Below are positions 21,496 to 37,202 of a stretch of 37,202 nt of DNA, piece by piece. Numbering within the stretch: the first letter of the stretch is position 1; every line of letters begins with the position of its first letter. Source of the stretch: Methylomonas sp. Lineage in GTDB: Bacteria > Pseudomonadota > Gammaproteobacteria > Methylococcales > Methylomonadaceae. The stretch lies in assembly GCA_026989395.1 (NCBI GenBank), contig JALSJK010000175.1:1-37202 (forward strand), read 5' to 3'. A program made the position numbers and the translations under genes. The notes under the pieces are model-generated. The model had not been told where the DNA came from and ran no database searches. It worked only from the letters and a program-made list of their open reading frames with translations.

Positions 21496-21797
21496 AAGAA
21501 CAGGAATATTTAGTGACCTTGAATGTACCACCGAGTCTTGAAGAACCCATTGTCGATTGCTTACTAACGTTTGAAACCGAACATGGCTTCAGCAGTCTGC
21601 CGGTTAGTGCCCATGATCACAGAAACCAGAATTTGTCGATTGCTGAGCAGGTATCAGGGAGGCAAGATAAAATTCGGTTTCAAATGTATATTCCGGAACA
21701 GGCATTGCCGGAATTGCTTGATAAGCTGAAAAATGATTTTTCAGGTTCCGGTATTCATTACTGGGTAATGCCGGTGATAAAAAGCGGTTATTTGTAG
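21492..21797 (+). CDS. DUF3240 family protein of metal RND operons
   Basis: A 101-aa cytosolic protein with the pattern of DUF3240: VTLNVPPSLEEPIVDCLL at the start, SLPVSAHDHR, SIAEQVSGRQDKIRFQMYIP, and the C-terminal GIHYWVMPVIKSGYL. Members are encoded directly after CzcA-type genes and are predicted to have a PII-like ferredoxin fold. A metal-sensing or pump-regulating role is inferred from that. Its start overlaps the pump stop by 4 nt. The gene closes the operon; no clear terminator follows, only REP-like palindromes. Confidence 0.88.
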   Translation: MKEQEYLVTLNVPPSLEEPIVDCLLTFETEHGFSSLPVSAHDHRNQNLSIAEQVSGRQDKIRFQMYIPEQALPELLDKLKNDFSGSGIHYWVMPVIKSGYL

Positions 21798-21803
21798 TCA
21801 CTA

Positions 21804-21928
21804 TGTCGGGTTACGGCTAATGCCTAATCCGACCTACTCGTTTTTCATCCGTGTAAACTAAAAATGATAGGTAAAAATAGTGAATGCTCCATCGGCTAAA
21901 GCCGGTAGTGTCGGGTTACGCTGCGGCT
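21804..21928. repeat. REP cluster after the efflux operon
   Basis: Three palindromic units. 21804-21836 is a diverged full GTCGGGTTA...CCTAATCCGACCTAC unit. 21893-21904 is CGGCT-AA-AGCCG. 21908-21928 is the left half (TGTCGGGTTACGCTGCGGCT) of the same family as the units at 33290-36985, with its right half missing. The RAYT gene at 34309 is the probable source family. Confidence 0.7.
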
Positions 21929-21959
21929 GATTGTTTCCTTTTTCAAGACAGGGTTAGGG

Positions 21960-31993: not shown

Positions 31994-33292
31994 ATGTCAT
32001 TATCCAGTCGGGCTTTGGCTTTGGTGAGCCTGATAATTTTACTGGCGATCACAGGTATTTGGGTTGGAGAACCCCTGCAAGGTCTGTGGCGATGGCCAGC
32101 CGTCATATTATTACTGTTCATTGTTTGGGAACGGGTGCAAACTGACAAACTGTTTTCAATAAATAGAGAAATAGCGCCCCGGTTGTTTCTTGGTGTACCT
32201 GCTCGTTATCAGCAAACCATCATCAATCACAGCCGCTATCCGTTGCTGCTAGACAGTCAATCTGATTATTCAGATTCATTGCAGGCAGATCCAAAGATAC
32301 TGCGCTGGAAAATTCCGGCTGGAGAATCCAGGGAAAAATTATTAAAGGTTGTTCCGGTCGCTTTAGGAGAAGCGGCATTGGGAAAAACCTATGTTCGTGT
32401 TTTAGGCCGATTCGGGTTGGTCTGGTGGCGACATGACATTGATAAATCGGTAAAATTTCAAATTGAACCGGCAATGTTAAAACACAATCTCACCATCACT
32501 GGAAATACAAAATCAGGGGGGAGAAATACCCGCCTCAGGGCAGGTTCAGGTTTTGAATTGCTCAATTTGAGAGATTATCAACATGGCGATCCGTTGCATA
32601 GTATTGACTGGAAGGCTAGCGCCAGAAGACAAAATACTGTGGTTCGGGTGTTCAGCAAACAGCAACGACTGGAAATTGCAATTTTGCTTGATTGTGGAAG
32701 AGCCAGCTTAATTCAATGTGGTTTAATGAGCCGTCTCCATCATTATATCAATATCGCCTCTCGCCTGACTGAATTTGCCATAAGCAATGAAGACCAGGTC
32801 GCATGTATTGCCTATGCTGATAAAACTATTGCCCACATGCCTATGTCGGGCGGTATTTCTGCAATTCAAAACACTCGACAACTATTAACGGGCTTGAACA
32901 CTGAAGTCGAAGAATCAAATCCGTTAGAGATCGCGCTGGAATTAAAATACTTCCTTAAACATCGTAGTCTGGTTGTTTATCTGACAGAAATGGAACAGGC
33001 AGAAGCAGCCACTCAATTAATGCAAGCCGTTCAATTATTACGCGGTAAACATCATATTGTCGTTGCGTCAATTGACGACCCCGATATCAATAATTTAACT
33101 CAGCAAATCGACCAGACCTGGCTATCTCCGTATCAAAATTTTGCAGCGCTGGAGTATTACCGGGGTCGGGCATTAACCCGTAACAAACTTAGACAATCCG
33201 GCGTTGATGTGCTGACTGCATGTCCCGAAAACCTGGATGCAGAAGTATTGAATTTTTATCAAAAAATTCGAGAAAGCCGAAAAGCCATGTAG
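31994..33292 (+). CDS. DUF58 domain protein, MoxR partner
   Basis: A 432-aa protein with two N-terminal membrane helices (ALALVSLIILLAITGIWV and WPAVILLLFIVW), a beta-rich exposed segment, and the DUF58 core (GSGFELLNLRDYQHGDPLHS, IDWKASARRQNTVVRVF). A VWA-like domain follows (LEIAILLDCGR). DUF58 proteins are predicted partners of MoxR ATPases. The stop codon TAG at 33290-33292 is the first part of a REP element, which suggests the REP insertion may have altered the original C-terminus. It is the last gene of the operon. Confidence 0.88.
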   Translation: MSLSSRALALVSLIILLAITGIWVGEPLQGLWRWPAVILLLFIVWERVQTDKLFSINREIAPRLFLGVPARYQQTIINHSRYPLLLDSQSDYSDSLQADPKILRWKIPAGESREKLLKVVPVALGEAALGKTYVRVLGRFGLVWWRHDIDKSVKFQIEPAMLKHNLTITGNTKSGGRNTRLRAGSGFELLNLRDYQHGDPLHSIDWKASARRQNTVVRVFSKQQRLEIAILLDCGRASLIQCGLMSRLHHYINIASRLTEFAISNEDQVACIAYADKTIAHMPMSGGISAIQNTRQLLTGLNTEVEESNPLEIALELKYFLKHRSLVVYLTEMEQAEAATQLMQAVQLLRGKHHIVVASIDDPDINNLTQQIDQTWLSPYQNFAALEYYRGRALTRNKLRQSGVDVLTACPENLDAEVLNFYQKIRESRKAM

Positions 33293-33372
33293 GTCGGGTT
33301 AGCGCCAGCGTAACCCGACATTGGTTGTGCGAAATTTTATTGTCGGGTTACGCTGCAGCTAACCCGACCTAC
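33290..33372. repeat. Inverted pair of REP units (BIME-like)
   Basis: 33290-33320 reads TAGGTCGGGTTAGCGC and on to AACCCGACA. 33341-33372 is the same unit inverted (TGTCGGGTTACGC to ACCCGACCTAC). Each unit is itself a near-perfect dyad, and the pair forms a larger dyad with a 20-nt spacer. It overlaps the DUF58 stop codon and may act as a transcription end. Confidence 0.85.
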
Positions 33373-33461
33373 CTGATTAAAAACATATTGCAAAGCAGAA
33401 ATTTAGAATGGTTGGTCTATGATTTTAAATATCTCATTTCGATATTTAGTAAAACCAAATC

Positions 33462-34251
33462 ATGCGTGAATTAACATGGAGAAAAGCGATAGATCAAGTG
33501 CTCAGATCATCTACAACCCCACTTCATTACAACGAAATTACAGAACGTATCATTTCAGAAGGTTTACGCAAAAATCTTGGTGCCACCCCAGCAGCAACGG
33601 TTAATGCACAGATTTCTGCTTCCATCAAACACGATGGTGATTCATCACCTTATATTCGAGTGTCAAAAGGCACATTTACCATGCGTGTGCCCACGCAACT
33701 GGTATATCAAAATCAGTACCAAAACTCACGCCAGATGTAACCGAGTCAGAGGAATTGGAAGAGCAGTATGAAATTATTACTTCATTTGGCATGTTTTGGC
33801 GAAAAGAAGCTATAGAGTGGAATACAAGTCCCAAGCTACTTGGAATGCAGCAGATTGGCGCTACACCCGTAGATTTTTACAAGCAGTTAGGGATTTATCT
33901 TCTTTACGATGGCCGTGAAGTTATTTATGTTGGTCGAACAAATGATAGGCCGCTGGGCAGAATGTTGTATGAGCATACAATAGATCGCATGTCAGCGCGA
34001 TGGGATAGATTTTCTTGGTTCGGTTTGTTACCCGTTTCTAAGACAGGAGATATTGGTGCATTACCCGATTCATTCAAGGCGGCAAAATTAATTCCAGCAT
34101 TGGAAGCGGTCTTAATCGAAGCTCTTGAGCCACGATAAAATAGGAAGCGTGGAGATGACCTGGCGGCAGTAGAATATCTTCAAAAAGTTGATCCAGAAAT
34201 CGAAAAAAAGAAAATAAAAGCCACGTTGGACGCAGCGCTCAACAAGCTGTA
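33462..34251 (+). pseudogene. Broken HARE-HTH / GIY-YIG nuclease
   Basis: The first frame (33462-33740) encodes a HARE-HTH domain: TWRKAIDQVLRSS, LHYNEITERIISEGL, GATPAATVNAQIS. A one-base shift near 33720 leads into a second frame (KLTPDVTESEELEEQYE onward) with a GIY-YIG nuclease domain: GIYLLYDGREVIYVGRTND, then RWDRFSWFGLL. That frame hits TAA at 34136-34138, where relatives would read Gln or similar, then continues open as NRKRGDDLAAVEYLQ to a stop at 34251. The joined product would be about 262 aa. HARE-HTH domains accompany nucleases of restriction-like systems. Frameshift plus nonsense means it is very probably inactive. It lies between REP units. Confidence 0.8.
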
Positions 34252-34268
34252 AAAGCAGCAAAACAAAG

Positions 34269-34299
34269 TAGATCGGGTTAGCGGCAGCGTAACCCGACA
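34269..34299 (+). repeat. REP unit upstream of the RAYT gene
   Basis: TAGATCGGGTTAGCGGCAGC and on to AACCCGACA, a near-perfect dyad in the same orientation as 33290-33320 and 36955-36985. It ends 9 nt before the RAYT start codon used here. Confidence 0.85.
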
Positions 34300-34308
34300 T
34301 TGATGCTT

Positions 34309-34848
34309 ATGCAATATCGACGATTAAAGATAGAAGGCAGTAGCTATTTTTTTACTTTGGTTACCGATAAAAGAAAAAAATTGTTTGCTGATGATGAAAA
34401 TGTGGCGTTATTACGACAGGCTTTTCGTCATGTAATGAAAAAACGGGTTTTTGTTATTGAAGCCATTGTGATATTGCCTGATCATATACATTGTATTTGG
34501 ACGCTTCCCGCTGGAGATGCTGATTTTTCAACACGCTGGCGGTTGATAAAAACGTGGTTTACCAAGCATTGTGATGAGCAATATAAAAGTGCTCCGAATA
34601 AGGCAAGAATCAAAAAACAACAACAAGCGGTTTGGCAGCACCGTTATTGGGAGCATTGCATCAAAGATGAGGTCGATTTTGAGCATCATGTGAATTATAT
34701 TCATTACAACCCAGTTAAACATGGCTATGTTGAAAGAGCAGTGGATTGGCAATATTCGAGTATTCACAAATACATCAAACGCGGGATTGTTTCTGATAGC
34801 TGGGGGGCTGGTAATGTTTCTATTCCAGATGGAATAGGGTGTGAATGA
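34309..34848 (+). CDS. REP-associated tyrosine transposase (RAYT, Y1/IS200-like)
   Basis: A 179-aa single-strand nuclease of the Y1/TnpA_REP group, which recognises and moves REP hairpins. The HUH motif is H59-I-H61 in LPDHIHCIW. The candidate catalytic Tyr lies in the helix HHVNYIHYNPVKHGY. The N-terminus MQYRRLKIEGSSYFFTLVT is typical. The start at 34309 is taken from the family; ATG at 34303 is also possible. The gene is flanked by a REP in direct orientation upstream (34269) and an inverted one downstream (34855), the classical RAYT layout. It appears intact and is probably responsible for the REP units of this window. Confidence 0.93.
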   Translation: MQYRRLKIEGSSYFFTLVTDKRKKLFADDENVALLRQAFRHVMKKRVFVIEAIVILPDHIHCIWTLPAGDADFSTRWRLIKTWFTKHCDEQYKSAPNKARIKKQQQAVWQHRYWEHCIKDEVDFEHHVNYIHYNPVKHGYVERAVDWQYSSIHKYIKRGIVSDSWGAGNVSIPDGIGCE

Positions 34849-34854
34849 TTTATT

Positions 34855-34886
34855 TGTCGGGTTACGCTGTCGCTAACCCGACCTAC
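34855..34886 (-). repeat. REP unit downstream of the RAYT gene
   Basis: TGTCGGGTTACGCTGTCGCT continuing to AACCCGACCTAC, inverted relative to the upstream unit. Together with 34269-34299 it frames the RAYT gene. CTGATTAAA follows, as it does after the unit at 33341-33372, so the family includes short flanking sequence. Confidence 0.85.
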
Positions 34887-34913
34887 CTGATTAAATATTA
34901 AAACCGGCTCTTG

Positions 34914-34940
34914 GGTCACAATTCGGCATAAATTGTGACC
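34914..34940. promoter_or_regulatory. Perfect 10-bp dyad upstream of the methyltransferase pair
   Basis: GGTCACAATT (34914-34923) and AATTGTGACC (34931-34940) are perfect inverted arms with a 7-nt spacer, 70 nt before the first methyltransferase start. This is long for chance and well placed for an operator. No T-run follows directly, so it is not an obvious terminator. The binding protein is unknown. Confidence 0.6.
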
Positions 34941-34965
34941 GCCACGGCAGAAAATCGCCTCTTTT

Positions 34966-35004
34966 TGTCTATCTTTTAGAGCAACAGTTCTAAAAAATCA
35001 GACA
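34966..35004 (+). promoter_or_regulatory. Second dyad at the methyltransferase start
   Basis: TTTTAGA (34974-34980) and TCTAAAA (34989-34995) are perfect arms, extended by TGTCT (34966-34970) and AGACA (35000-35004). The structure ends 5 nt before the ATG at 35010, where no Shine-Dalgarno sequence is visible. It may be an operator or an mRNA hairpin controlling translation. Confidence 0.5.
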
Positions 35005-35009
35005 AACAA

Positions 35010-35798
35010 ATGACGGATACAGTTGTACTCGATGCAATTTACCAGCGCACTCTGGAAAGGGTAAAAAATCTGGGTGAGGTTTTTACGCCGCCTTCCAGCG
35101 TAGAAGAAATGCTCACGCTTTTAAGCGCTGGCAGAAAAGATTTCTGGGGCGATATTAACCATGTGTTTTTTGAGCCAAATTGTGGACATGGAAATTTTGT
35201 CATCGCAATTTACCAAAAACGGCTGCAAGCGCTATGCAAAAAAGCCCCGTCACAAAATCCGACACAAGCGGCACTGTTTGCTATTGCCAATGCGATCAAC
35301 ACTTTGTGGGCGATAGATATTGATGCTGAAAATGTCAATCAATGCCGCAATCGGGTATTTCAGGAAACAATGGTTTTCCTGCAACAAAAAACCGGTATTC
35401 CAAAACAGCATTCCGTTGTAAAACAACATAAATATTTTTTCGCCCATTTATTATGCGCGATTAATTGGCATATTCAGGAAAATGAAACCCTGTCATGTTT
35501 GAGCGACAGTAAAGCGGCGAAAACCAATGCCGAAAAAACCCGTTCTGGCAGACAATGGTTTGCTAGACATGGGCATCATCCGCTGAATTTCAATTTAAGC
35601 TGGGCCGAACATTATCAACGATGCAGGCAAGATAATCTTACCGATCTTACCTTCCAAAGAGCGCAACGGTTTTTGATTGATTTATTGGCAGGCCAGTTTC
35701 AGACTAGCACAGAATTCCAATTCGCTAACATCCTTGCAAGTCAACAGCTTGTCAACCAAAAATCGGCAATAAAAACCAAAACGCAAGGTGCAGGATAA
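35010..35798 (+). CDS. N6-adenine DNA methyltransferase-like protein, subunit 1
   Basis: A 262-aa protein resembling the SAM-binding half of N6-adenine DNA methyltransferases. The GEVFTPPSSVEEML segment is the usual pre-motif-I element. FFEPNCGHGNFVIAI matches motif I (normally DPxCGxGxF, here EPNCGHGNF). LWAIDIDAENVNQC fits motif II. No catalytic NPPY/DPPY motif IV is present anywhere, so alone it should not methylate. The C-terminus (QRAQRFLIDLLAGQF onward) is unfamiliar. The stop lies 4 nt before the second gene, which does carry NPPY, suggesting the two work as a heteromeric enzyme. Function is inferred. Confidence 0.7.
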   Translation: MTDTVVLDAIYQRTLERVKNLGEVFTPPSSVEEMLTLLSAGRKDFWGDINHVFFEPNCGHGNFVIAIYQKRLQALCKKAPSQNPTQAALFAIANAINTLWAIDIDAENVNQCRNRVFQETMVFLQQKTGIPKQHSVVKQHKYFFAHLLCAINWHIQENETLSCLSDSKAAKTNAEKTRSGRQWFARHGHHPLNFNLSWAEHYQRCRQDNLTDLTFQRAQRFLIDLLAGQFQTSTEFQFANILASQQLVNQKSAIKTKTQGAG

Positions 35799-35802
35799 AG
35801 CC

Positions 35803-36951
35803 ATGAACAGCCAGCCTGCTTACAACACCCATACCCATGTGGTCGATATTCTCGGGAATGTTAAAGGCCGCGATCAGCCAATCATGCTGATGACAAAAGC
35901 GATTGAGCTGGTGACCACACTGGATGCCGAAGTTTTTCTTGATGATGACGTGGTATTTTTCGACCCGTTTTGTAAAGCCGGTGAAATACTGCTGGCTTGC
36001 GCCTTTTCAAGTTGCCGAGCCAAGTTTGAATTAGTTCCAGAACTATTCACCGAGGAAGCGTTTAAAAAACAGGTTAAAAAAGAGCTGTACCACTCCAACC
36101 GCTATTTTGCCCTCGCCCCTGACGAAAGACATCACCGCCTGAGCCTGCGTACCTTTCTGGGCAACGAAAATTCACACAAAGAGCATTTTAACCACATCAT
36201 CCGCAACGGCAATTATGTGTCGGAAATTGACGGCAAGCTGAATCGAGACAAATTTGAACAGGAGTTTTTACCCATGCTGGAGCATATAAAAAGCACATCT
36301 GGGAAAAACAAAATTATTGCGGTGGGTAATCCGCCTTATCAGGAGTCGGATGGTGGTTTTGGTAAAAGCGCCAAATCTATTTATGATTTGTTTACCGAGC
36401 AATTAGTTGAGAATCAGGATATATCTGAATTTGTACTTGTCATCCCTGCCAGATGGTTTAGTTGTGGCAAAGGACTTGATGGTTTTCGTGAACGAATGAT
36501 GTCATCCGCAAAGATAAAAAATCTCAAGTATTTTCAGAATGCAAGTCATGTATTCCCTACCGTGGATATAAATGGAGGAATTTGTTTTCTACATTATGAT
36601 AAAGACCATGAAGAAAACGAAGATTTTATCGAAAAAGAAAAGGACAAGGAAAGGCAGTCAAGAAAAAAATGGTATGCCACGCAAATTAAACGTCTGGCTA
36701 TCTGTATGGCTGATTTTATCTATATGACTTATGAACGGGAATATAATATCGATGATGTCATCCAAACCAAAAACCCGCATTTCTTTGAAGTCATGACAGG
36801 GATTTCGCAACACGATTTTTCCGAACTTTGCGACAAAGGCTTTATCAACCGCTTTGTTTTGAACCGGATTGTGCGGGAGTTTCGGGACCAGGAAACCGGC
36901 TCATTACAGCCAGAGGATTATATCCTCAAGAATCTGTTTGATGTTGCTTAA
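35803..36951 (+). CDS. Eco57I-type DNA methyltransferase-like protein, subunit 2
   Basis: A 382-aa protein with the catalytic motif IV NPPYQESDGGFG and the following region LVIPARWFSCGKGLDGFRER and VFPTVDINGGICFLHYD, typical of Eco57I-like adenine methyltransferases. The N-terminal motif I is altered: FFDPFCKAGEILLACA, where Lys replaces the Gly of DPFCGSG, a variant I associate with methyltransferases of type III-like or Eco57I-like systems. A charged coiled segment (HEENEDFIEKEKDKERQ) lies in the C-terminal half. The ATG at 35803 has AGGA about 7 nt before it; the GTG at 35788 would overlap gene 1. No restriction domain or helicase is visible. Confidence 0.72.
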   Translation: MNSQPAYNTHTHVVDILGNVKGRDQPIMLMTKAIELVTTLDAEVFLDDDVVFFDPFCKAGEILLACAFSSCRAKFELVPELFTEEAFKKQVKKELYHSNRYFALAPDERHHRLSLRTFLGNENSHKEHFNHIIRNGNYVSEIDGKLNRDKFEQEFLPMLEHIKSTSGKNKIIAVGNPPYQESDGGFGKSAKSIYDLFTEQLVENQDISEFVLVIPARWFSCGKGLDGFRERMMSSAKIKNLKYFQNASHVFPTVDINGGICFLHYDKDHEENEDFIEKEKDKERQSRKKWYATQIKRLAICMADFIYMTYEREYNIDDVIQTKNPHFFEVMTGISQHDFSELCDKGFINRFVLNRIVREFRDQETGSLQPEDYILKNLFDVA

Positions 36952-36954
36952 CGG

Positions 36955-36985
36955 TAGGTCGGGTTAGCGACAGCGTAACCCGACA
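36955..36985 (+). repeat. REP unit after the methyltransferase pair
   Basis: TAGGTCGGGTTAGCGACAGC continuing to AACCCGACA. It lies 4 nt after the subunit 2 stop region, in direct orientation to 34269-34299, and is followed by the same ATTGATGCT as the RAYT upstream unit. Confidence 0.85.
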
Positions 36986-37100
36986 TTGATGCTAAGTTGA
37001 AAGAGCGGTAGATTGGCAATATTCGAGTATTCACAAATACATCAAACGCGGGATTGTTTCTGATGGCTGGGGGCTGGTAATGTTTGTATTCCTGAGGGGG
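36986..37100 (+). pseudogene. Internally deleted RAYT copy
   Basis: After the REP, TTGATGCT matches the first bases of the RAYT region (34300-34307). The sequence then jumps at about 36994-36996 to the last roughly 110 nt of the RAYT gene (34730 onward: GTTGAAAGAGC, GATTGGCAATATTCGAG and so on). A few substitutions and a one-base loss in the G-run near 37070 are present. About 420 nt of the gene are missing. It is non-coding but retains both ends, like an internal deletion derivative of the REP-RAYT-REP element. Similarity fades after about 37100. Confidence 0.8.
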
Positions 37101-37183
37101 TTGGGTCAGGGCAAACGCATTAAAATATATTAATTAAAAGTAAGTTATGAGATATTTCTAATTTTAAATATAAGGAATGCCTC

Positions 37184-37202
37184 ATGAGTGAAAGTATAAT
37201 TG
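37184..37202 (+). CDS. Start of a gene cut by the window edge
   Basis: ATG at 37184 with AAGGA at 37172-37176, 7 nt upstream, reading MSESII before the window ends. This is too short to identify. Its position right after the methyltransferase module makes it a candidate partner gene. Confidence 0.45.

Follow-up and report, generated by a model that had tools for sequence, protein, structure and literature searches.

The gap between the DUF58 gene and cbiB in the Methylomonas sp. contig JALSJK010000175.1 is in all probability a decaying accretion island and not a mobile methyltransferase cassette. We analysed the whole 37,202-nt stretch of this contig (the window), at the right end of which the island lies. 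We infer the following order of events. One ordinary REPtron (REP-RAYT-REP), its transposase gene open, would have settled between the DUF58 gene and cbiB; a second, related RAYT unit, somewhat diverged beforehand, would have lost 419 internal nt and then been severed by an ISAs1-like insertion sequence (IS). A presumably dead restriction-modification operon, its methylase and helicase genes fused by a deletion of about 2.7 kb, lies between the two RAYT copies, and the RAYT pieces would flank these genes merely because REP elements settle between genes.

Anatomy of the island

A preliminary description of this DNA had reported the order REP-RAYT-REP, ORFs, REP and short RAYT, and the repeat, ORF and alignment coordinates bear it out. 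As observed directly, the layout comprises REP-RAYT-REP (34268-34887), methyltransferase-like ORFs (35010-36951), a REP (36953-36985) and a RAYT 3' piece (36991-37106). Both RAYT 3' ends and both upstream REPs are in direct orientation, as had been stated. The individual features are as follows.

33286-33375, no strand: two inverted REPs, overlapping the DUF58 gene at its 3' end (repeat table)
33462-34252, +: broken HARE-HTH / GIY-YIG-like gene (HARE-HTH match; G034 homologue)
34268-34299, +: 5' REP of the intact REPtron, GTAG-tagged
34309-34848, +: RAYT / TnpA_REP gene, open, 179 aa (NF047646, Y1_Tnp, 4ER8)
34855-34887, -: 3' REP of the intact REPtron, inverted (repeat table)
34900-35009, +: operon upstream region (window 34900 aligns with L064:427 of G006)
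35010-35798, +: methyltransferase-like gene 1, 262 aa (G006 counterpart 261 aa)
35788-36951, +: chimeric ORF, Eco57I-type methylase to residue ~275, then T5orf172-ResIII helicase C-terminus
36605-36615, +: fusion point of the ~2.7-kb operon deletion (two G006 alignments overlap at 36610-36628)
36953-36985, +: REP upstream of the short copy; its GTAG starts two nt past the chimeric-ORF stop codon
36986-37106, +: RAYT remnant, consisting of the leader ATTGATGCT (from 36985) and a 3'-end piece with a 1-nt frameshift, without a 3' REP
37107-37202, +: end of a multi-copy ISAs1-like IS, reaching the contig end (also at 7 other contig ends)

The DUF58-cbiB site

Nine other family genomes have a DUF58 gene at E <= 1e-80; we read one of them, G006, in detail and the other eight by blastn. 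In G006, which belongs to the same genus, the site from DUF58 to cbiB measures only 350 bp and contains no island. Its gap holds one decayed REP, 33 nt past the DUF58 stop; none of 3000 Markov sequences and 1 of 115 genomic pieces reached its score of 26. Island DNA gave no blastn match in the other eight genomes, and the DUF58 gene was not found in G033, the third genome of the genus. In G000, cbiB lies near the start of contig C148 and points to the contig end; we infer that this contig joins the right side of the window. The end of a 35-aa ORF at the start of C148 had no Pfam match.

The HARE-HTH / GIY-YIG-like gene upstream of the REPtron is broken twice, by a frameshift near 33686-33698 and by an in-frame stop at 34136-34138. 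Its DNA is 74% identical to an intact gene of 263 aa in the family genome G034, the product of which has a GIY-YIG match under the Pfam cut-off (E 0.056).

The intact REPtron

Judged by its sequence, the product of the RAYT gene is a genuine RAYT, a REP-associated tyrosine type transposase. The protein scored 193.6 bits against NCBIfam NF047646 (cut-off 80; E 1.5e-57), it carries a Y1_Tnp match, and its sole PDB match at E <= 0.001 was 4ER8 TnpArep (E 7e-39). GTAG-tagged palindromic REPs bracket the gene in inverted orientation, the arrangement that marks a REPtron, and the inverted REP at 34855-34887 matches the REP at 36953-36985 without a difference across 33 nt. One full copy only of the 34309-34848 RAYT was found in the assembly (all 8 protein candidates scored). 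Elsewhere in the family genomes the best match to the full gene, among the matches listed (about three candidates per genome), was 73% over 336 nt, with short stretches of at most 84%.

The short RAYT copy

Positions 36991-37106 align with 34724-34840 of the intact gene at 106 identical positions out of 117 (91%), a similarity far beyond chance (E 5e-40), and the longest identical run between the two 3' ends is 54 nt (34744-34797). When the short copy was used as query against 201 family genomes (at most four candidates scored per genome), the adjacent RAYT, at 91%, was the only long match; the other two matches were of 36 and 24 nt. The short copy is thus not closer to some other RAYT gene, an outcome that would have told against the preliminary description, and its sequence supports a place in the lineage of the neighbouring RAYT.

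From GTAG to GTTGAAAG the full copy measures 461 nt (34268 to 34729), against 42 nt for the short copy (36954 to 36996); 419 nt are thus missing, in agreement with the earlier estimate of about 420. Because GCT, as noted by eye, is common to both sides of the deletion junction, the loss likely occurred by illegitimate recombination. The short copy also has a 1-nt deletion relative to the intact RAYT. Of the nine substitutions that separate the copies, six fall on third codon positions (binomial P about 0.04), a weak hint that the short copy may derive from a previously diverged RAYT gene rather than from its neighbour by a recent deletion. The term "deletion derivative" therefore described the form correctly, but its implied descent from the neighbouring gene may be mistaken.

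Contrary to what had been claimed, the short copy has not kept both ends: its match stops at 37106, 8 nt short of the RAYT ORF end, and the end of the IS stands there instead of a 3' REP. This IS boundary was observed directly. The segment 37107-37202 recurs at 99-100% identity at the ends of seven other contigs, and the flanks preceding CAGGGC differ among the contig ends that share the IS. We take the CAGGGC start of the repeated sequence to match the ISAs1-family end motif. The beginning of the IS ORF, of which 23 aa were read, matched PF13808 weakly (E 0.009, below the curated cut-off). A right-hand RAYT end and a REP may lie beyond the IS, the right part of the island being unassembled. 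A pattern search for such a RAYT 3' end (at most 3 mismatches) returned nothing but the intact copy and two places unrelated to it; an end diverged by more than three mismatches may have escaped it.

The operon between the RAYT copies

DNA homology of the operon with G006 begins 12 nt past the 3' REP of the intact REPtron and stops just before the REP at 36953-36985. The G006 operon is unfused; it sits at a different locus, is accompanied by neither REP nor RAYT, and contains a 10-N gap within the methylase gene. The G006 homologue of methyltransferase-like gene 1 has weak PglX/MTase_II matches only. Relative to G006, about 2.7 kb is absent from the chimeric ORF, and the fusion, a direct observation, is in frame. 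The methylase and helicase parts are 2.79-2.88 kb apart in 11 of 11 loci with both, and the helicase aligns over 810-821 aa in all but one of 15 relatives' loci, the 15th being cut by a contig end. The full-length methylase and helicase of an intact restriction-modification operon are absent from the window. Since the second "methyltransferase" fuses parts of two genes, the operon is a remnant; residual function of the chimeric ORF is possible because it is open and in frame.

In the available DNA around relatives of the operon, where several loci are cut by contig ends, we directly observed no RAYT at any of the 15 loci. Methyltransferases without flanking RAYT in all relatives, which the preliminary description had named as contrary to its own reading, were therefore what we found as far as the DNA permits; with a chimeric second ORF and an operon reduced to a remnant, its "methyltransferase cassette" is not supported.

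The same data bear on a composite RAYT element, in which the methyltransferase operon would have been mobilised as one piece by a pair of directly oriented REPtrons, the downstream member of which decayed later. As counterpoints to decay, two related RAYT pieces in direct orientation flank the operon, formally the layout of a composite element, and REPs stand close to it on both sides (12 nt and 2 nt), the homology with G006 starting 12 nt from one of them and ending just before the other; furthermore, G006 has its operon elsewhere and no island between its DUF58 and cbiB. Against these points stand the absence of RAYT at all 15 loci, the single full copy of the gene in the assembly, and the account of RAYTs in PMC3116915, which reports them to be single-copy and seemingly incapable of mobilising themselves. 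We therefore regard a composite element as very unlikely. A plasmid search returned three records, each covering at most 8% of the query, with no bearing on mobility.

That the RAYT 3' ends serve as a recombination switch deleting the methyltransferases is very improbable. The 54 identical nt lie inside a direct repeat whose copies are 2267 nt apart, through which the circular excision proposed in the preliminary description is possible; the proposal gained no support. There is little to switch, because the operon is already a fusion remnant. No deleted form with one RAYT left was seen, the G006 site being without RAYT and G033 having yielded no DUF58 gene, and generic RecA deletion would account for any such event.

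REP doublets within and outside the window

The REPs at 33286-33375 form an inverted doublet separated by a spacer of 20 nt. This spacer and the outer flank (33320-33340 and 33374-33383) share 22 of 31 nt with the RAYT 3' end, a value reached by 9 of 200000 shuffles. The same REP core occurs on at least 11 non-window contigs (40 of 54 candidates scored), mostly in another context: the TIR of a different element adjoins the REP match in 9 of the 11 listed, and the dispersed REP pairs sit in that element, a 133-134-bp one with terminal inverted repeats. None of the 11 other REP contigs examined showed the spacer of the 33286-33375 doublet. Possibly this pair, too, derives from the same RAYT element, as its third and minimal remnant. 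A local decay series of one REPtron lineage, from intact (34268-34887) through internally deleted (36953-37106) to a minimal REP pair (33286-33383), is a tentative and rather doubtful reading. If true, it would be a snapshot of a REP doublet (REPIN) born from a REPtron by internal deletion, and a concrete example bearing on the open question of REPIN origin.

The preliminary description had instead seen in the short copy a non-autonomous, RAYT-mobilised miniature element. The copy does retain the leader together with a 5' REP and some of the 3' coding end, and REPINs are a known RAYT-linked non-autonomous class, so described in PMC3116915. Nevertheless, the copy has no 3' REP, and a genome-wide look for other short REP-deltaRAYT copies found none in the draft, which is 98% complete and in which repeats may be collapsed (8 of 8 protein candidates, 40 of 54 and 40 of 52 DNA candidates scored, and a pattern search). 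The REP contigs outside the window, with a different element's TIR alongside in most cases, likewise argue against it. On the missing 3' REP and the lack of a second copy in the draft this candidate was rejected, and we give it hardly any credence.

A wrong join at repeats, making the island partly an assembly artefact, is highly improbable: the source assembly is a draft of 182 contigs and the window ends in a multi-copy IS, but the two RAYT copies are 9% different, and around the operon fusion point the repeat table of 33000-37202 lists no repeat above about 20 nt.

Comparison with known systems

The locus cautions against taking repeat-bounded genes for a mobile cassette, because the relatives show these genes to be fused remnants and an unrelated insertion sequence cuts the "deletion element". 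We found no literature on Methylomonas together with REP-associated elements, which is not proof of absence from print.

The sequence at the right end resembles an ISAs1-family IS in its CAGGGC start, its multiple copies and its weakly PF13808-like ORF start, although just 96 nt lie in the window and the body is in none of the contigs examined. The operon is like a restriction-modification operon with an Eco57I-type methylase and a T5orf172-ResIII helicase, the relatives of which keep the order of two methylase-like genes followed by the helicase; in contrast, the window has lost most of the helicase as well as the C-terminus of the methylase, and the remainder is fused. The inverted doublet at 33286-33375 has the form of a REPIN, yet REPINs are dispersed, whereas here the spacer, which did not recur at the 11 other REP contigs, and the flank are similar to the local RAYT 3' end. 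Finally, the intact REP-RAYT-REP is like known REPtrons, with a RAYT protein and GTAG-tagged, inverted REPs on both sides; of nine family relatives inspected by eye, at least five have REP-like repeats beside the gene. The locus departs from RAYTs as PMC3116915 describes them, single-copy, in having about 2 kb away a second copy of the same lineage, internally deleted and severed by an IS.

Layout of the island

The simplest history of the island at the end of the contig is one of accretion and decay. A tolerated intergenic site would have gathered REPtrons and genes of foreign origin, and the genes would then have been broken through frameshift, stop and deletion; the middle of a second RAYT unit would have been lost, and an insertion sequence (IS) would have landed in its remainder. 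The host genome comprises 3.27 Mb in 182 contigs and is 98% complete, the window being the whole of contig C175. From 33286, the features are, in order:

33286-33375, inverted REP pair
33462-34252, broken HARE-HTH/GIY-YIG-like gene
34268-34887, REP-RAYT-REP (intact copy)
35010-35798, methyltransferase-like gene 1
35788-36951, 387-aa ORF
36953-36985, REP
36991-37106, RAYT fragment (with the preceding REP, the short copy)
37107 to contig end, IS end

The HARE-HTH/GIY-YIG-like gene carries a frameshift and a premature stop. Its intact 263-aa homologue in the family genome G034 (L144:7956-8747) lies downstream of what we take to be genes for G6P dehydrogenase and 6-phosphogluconolactonase, and no methylase-like gene was noticed beside it. 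Elsewhere in the window, 21781-21950 holds two REP-like palindromes that score lower (34 and 30).

Our genus sample comprised three genomes. In the same-genus relative G006, 350 bp separate the DUF58 gene from the end of cbiB (L105:9526-9875), and this stretch holds no island. The cbiB gene of the window genome is found close to where contig C148 starts; it is oriented towards the contig end and stands behind an MgtC/DUF4010 gene. From synteny with G006 we infer that C175 and C148 face each other, and the island would thus run through the remainder of C175 and across a gap in the assembly into about 1.3 kb of C148. At the start of C148 (1-110; L115) lies an ORF end of 35 aa with no Pfam match, which may be a piece of a further mobile element within this island.

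In the otherwise empty G006 site, a decayed REP stands 33 nt past the stop codon of DUF58; its score of 26 was matched by no Markov sequence out of 3000 and by a single genomic piece out of 115. Thus, a REP at this site may be ancestral. The spacer and outer flank of the window pair at 33286-33375 match the RAYT 3' end at 22 of 31 nt (9 of 200,000 shuffles), an optimistic statistic because the stretches were picked after seeing the repeat table. Judged by this likeness, the pair may count as a third remnant of that RAYT element, reduced to a minimum. To read intact copy, deleted copy and minimal pair as stages of one lineage is less compelling, however, because the REP at 33286 could be the older, ancestral one.

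The methyltransferase genes

The G006 operon consists of gene 1, which codes for 261 aa, the gene of an Eco57I-type methylase, which contains a 10-N run, and a gene whose 815-aa product combines T5orf172 with ResIII domains. Residues 4-281 of the window 387-aa ORF match the methylase and residues 274-386 the helicase C-terminus. We compared 15 loci from 15 named contigs, several ending early at contig ends. The helicase alignment spans 810-821 aa in 14 of them, the remaining locus being cut by a contig end, and the methylase and helicase parts lie 2.79-2.88 kb apart in all 11 loci holding both; the other four show the helicase part only. Given this unfused spacing and the two-part match, the window ORF is therefore a deletion fusion. 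As a restriction system, the window operon has very probably lost its function.

No RAYT was detected (tblastn, E <= 1e-3) in any of the 15 loci, several of which stop at contig ends, or in the G006 contig, covered over its full 14.5 kb. A lone 8-nt REP core is present somewhere in four loci (L049, L051, L054, L063) and in none of the other 11. The preliminary description is confirmed in part as an observation and supported in part as an interpretation. It had proposed a mobile methyltransferase cassette, which the fused ORF and the RAYT-free loci of relatives do not bear out. The two RAYT 3' ends have 54 identical nt in common, and recombination across them could delete 2267 nt. The proposed excision as a circle finds no backing, however, and it would remove genes that are already remnants. 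A composite element is conceivable but unlikely, having no support from relatives, given the same absence of RAYT.

The short RAYT copy

Across REP and leader up to ATTGATGCT, the short copy agrees with the intact one at 38 of 40 nt; it then jumps to the RAYT 3' end, with identity at 106 of 117 positions and 419 nt missing. An in-frame comparison of 112 positions shows nine substitutions, six of them in third codon position, besides the loss of 1 nt. The fragment has no REP on its 3' side. At 37107 a stretch (CAGGGC...) begins that runs up to the contig end and recurs, at 99-100% identity, at the ends of seven other contigs (C182, C171, C132, C96, C79, C15, C170), among which the bases preceding CAGGGC differ; this is the pattern of a multi-copy IS breaking the assembly. 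The short copy is therefore an IS-truncated fragment. Of the deletion derivative proposed earlier, the loss of 419 nt and the RAYT lineage stand, but the two-ended miniature element does not, with no 3' REP and the IS beginning at 37107. A search elsewhere for the missing RAYT 3' end yielded nothing convincing.

A weak match of the first 23 codons of the IS ORF to PF13808 (E 0.009, below cut-off), together with the fit to what we take to be the ISAs1 end motif, points to membership of the ISAs1 family. At L011 (contig C41), CAGGGCAAACGCATTAAAAT sequence 3' of the REP resembles the IS end at 37107; its continuation differs.

Dispersed REPs and the RAYT gene

Scoring 40 of 54 candidates gave REP matches on at least 11 contigs besides the window itself. 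Nine of these 11 carry CACTGCCATTAAGTTAAG, with up to 2 mismatches, at one or both sides, and in eight of the nine a REP pair also exceeds the score used; C41 and C101 show neither feature. On C3, C43 and C170, both CACTGCCATTAAGTTAAG ends were found at a spacing that gives an element of 133-134 bp. It is a MITE-like unit with an inverted REP doublet at its core, and its spacers differ by eye from those of the window.

Dispersed REP element with terminal inverted repeats CACTGCCATTAAGTTAAG (C3 judged by repeat spacing only; C11 with one REP above the score used)
Contigs: C3, C11, C24, C29, C31, C43, C50, C143, C159, C170
Loci: L154, L158, L026, L015, L014, L021, L010, L020, L028, L019, L031

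A protein search of the window genome found a single full RAYT copy and two further weak matches, a C157 stretch with eight stops and a 193-aa frame on C149. At the DNA level, the gene has relatives in 116 of 201 family genomes (E <= 1e-5), and REP-like repeats directly adjoin RAYT, by eye, in at least five (L145, L149, L150, L151, L152) of nine relatives read (L145-L153). The RAYT assignment itself held: the protein matches NCBIfam NF047646 well above cut-off as well as the solved TnpArep structure 4ER8, and its REPs bear the GTAG tag. The window RAYT is a genuine, ordinary member of its kind.
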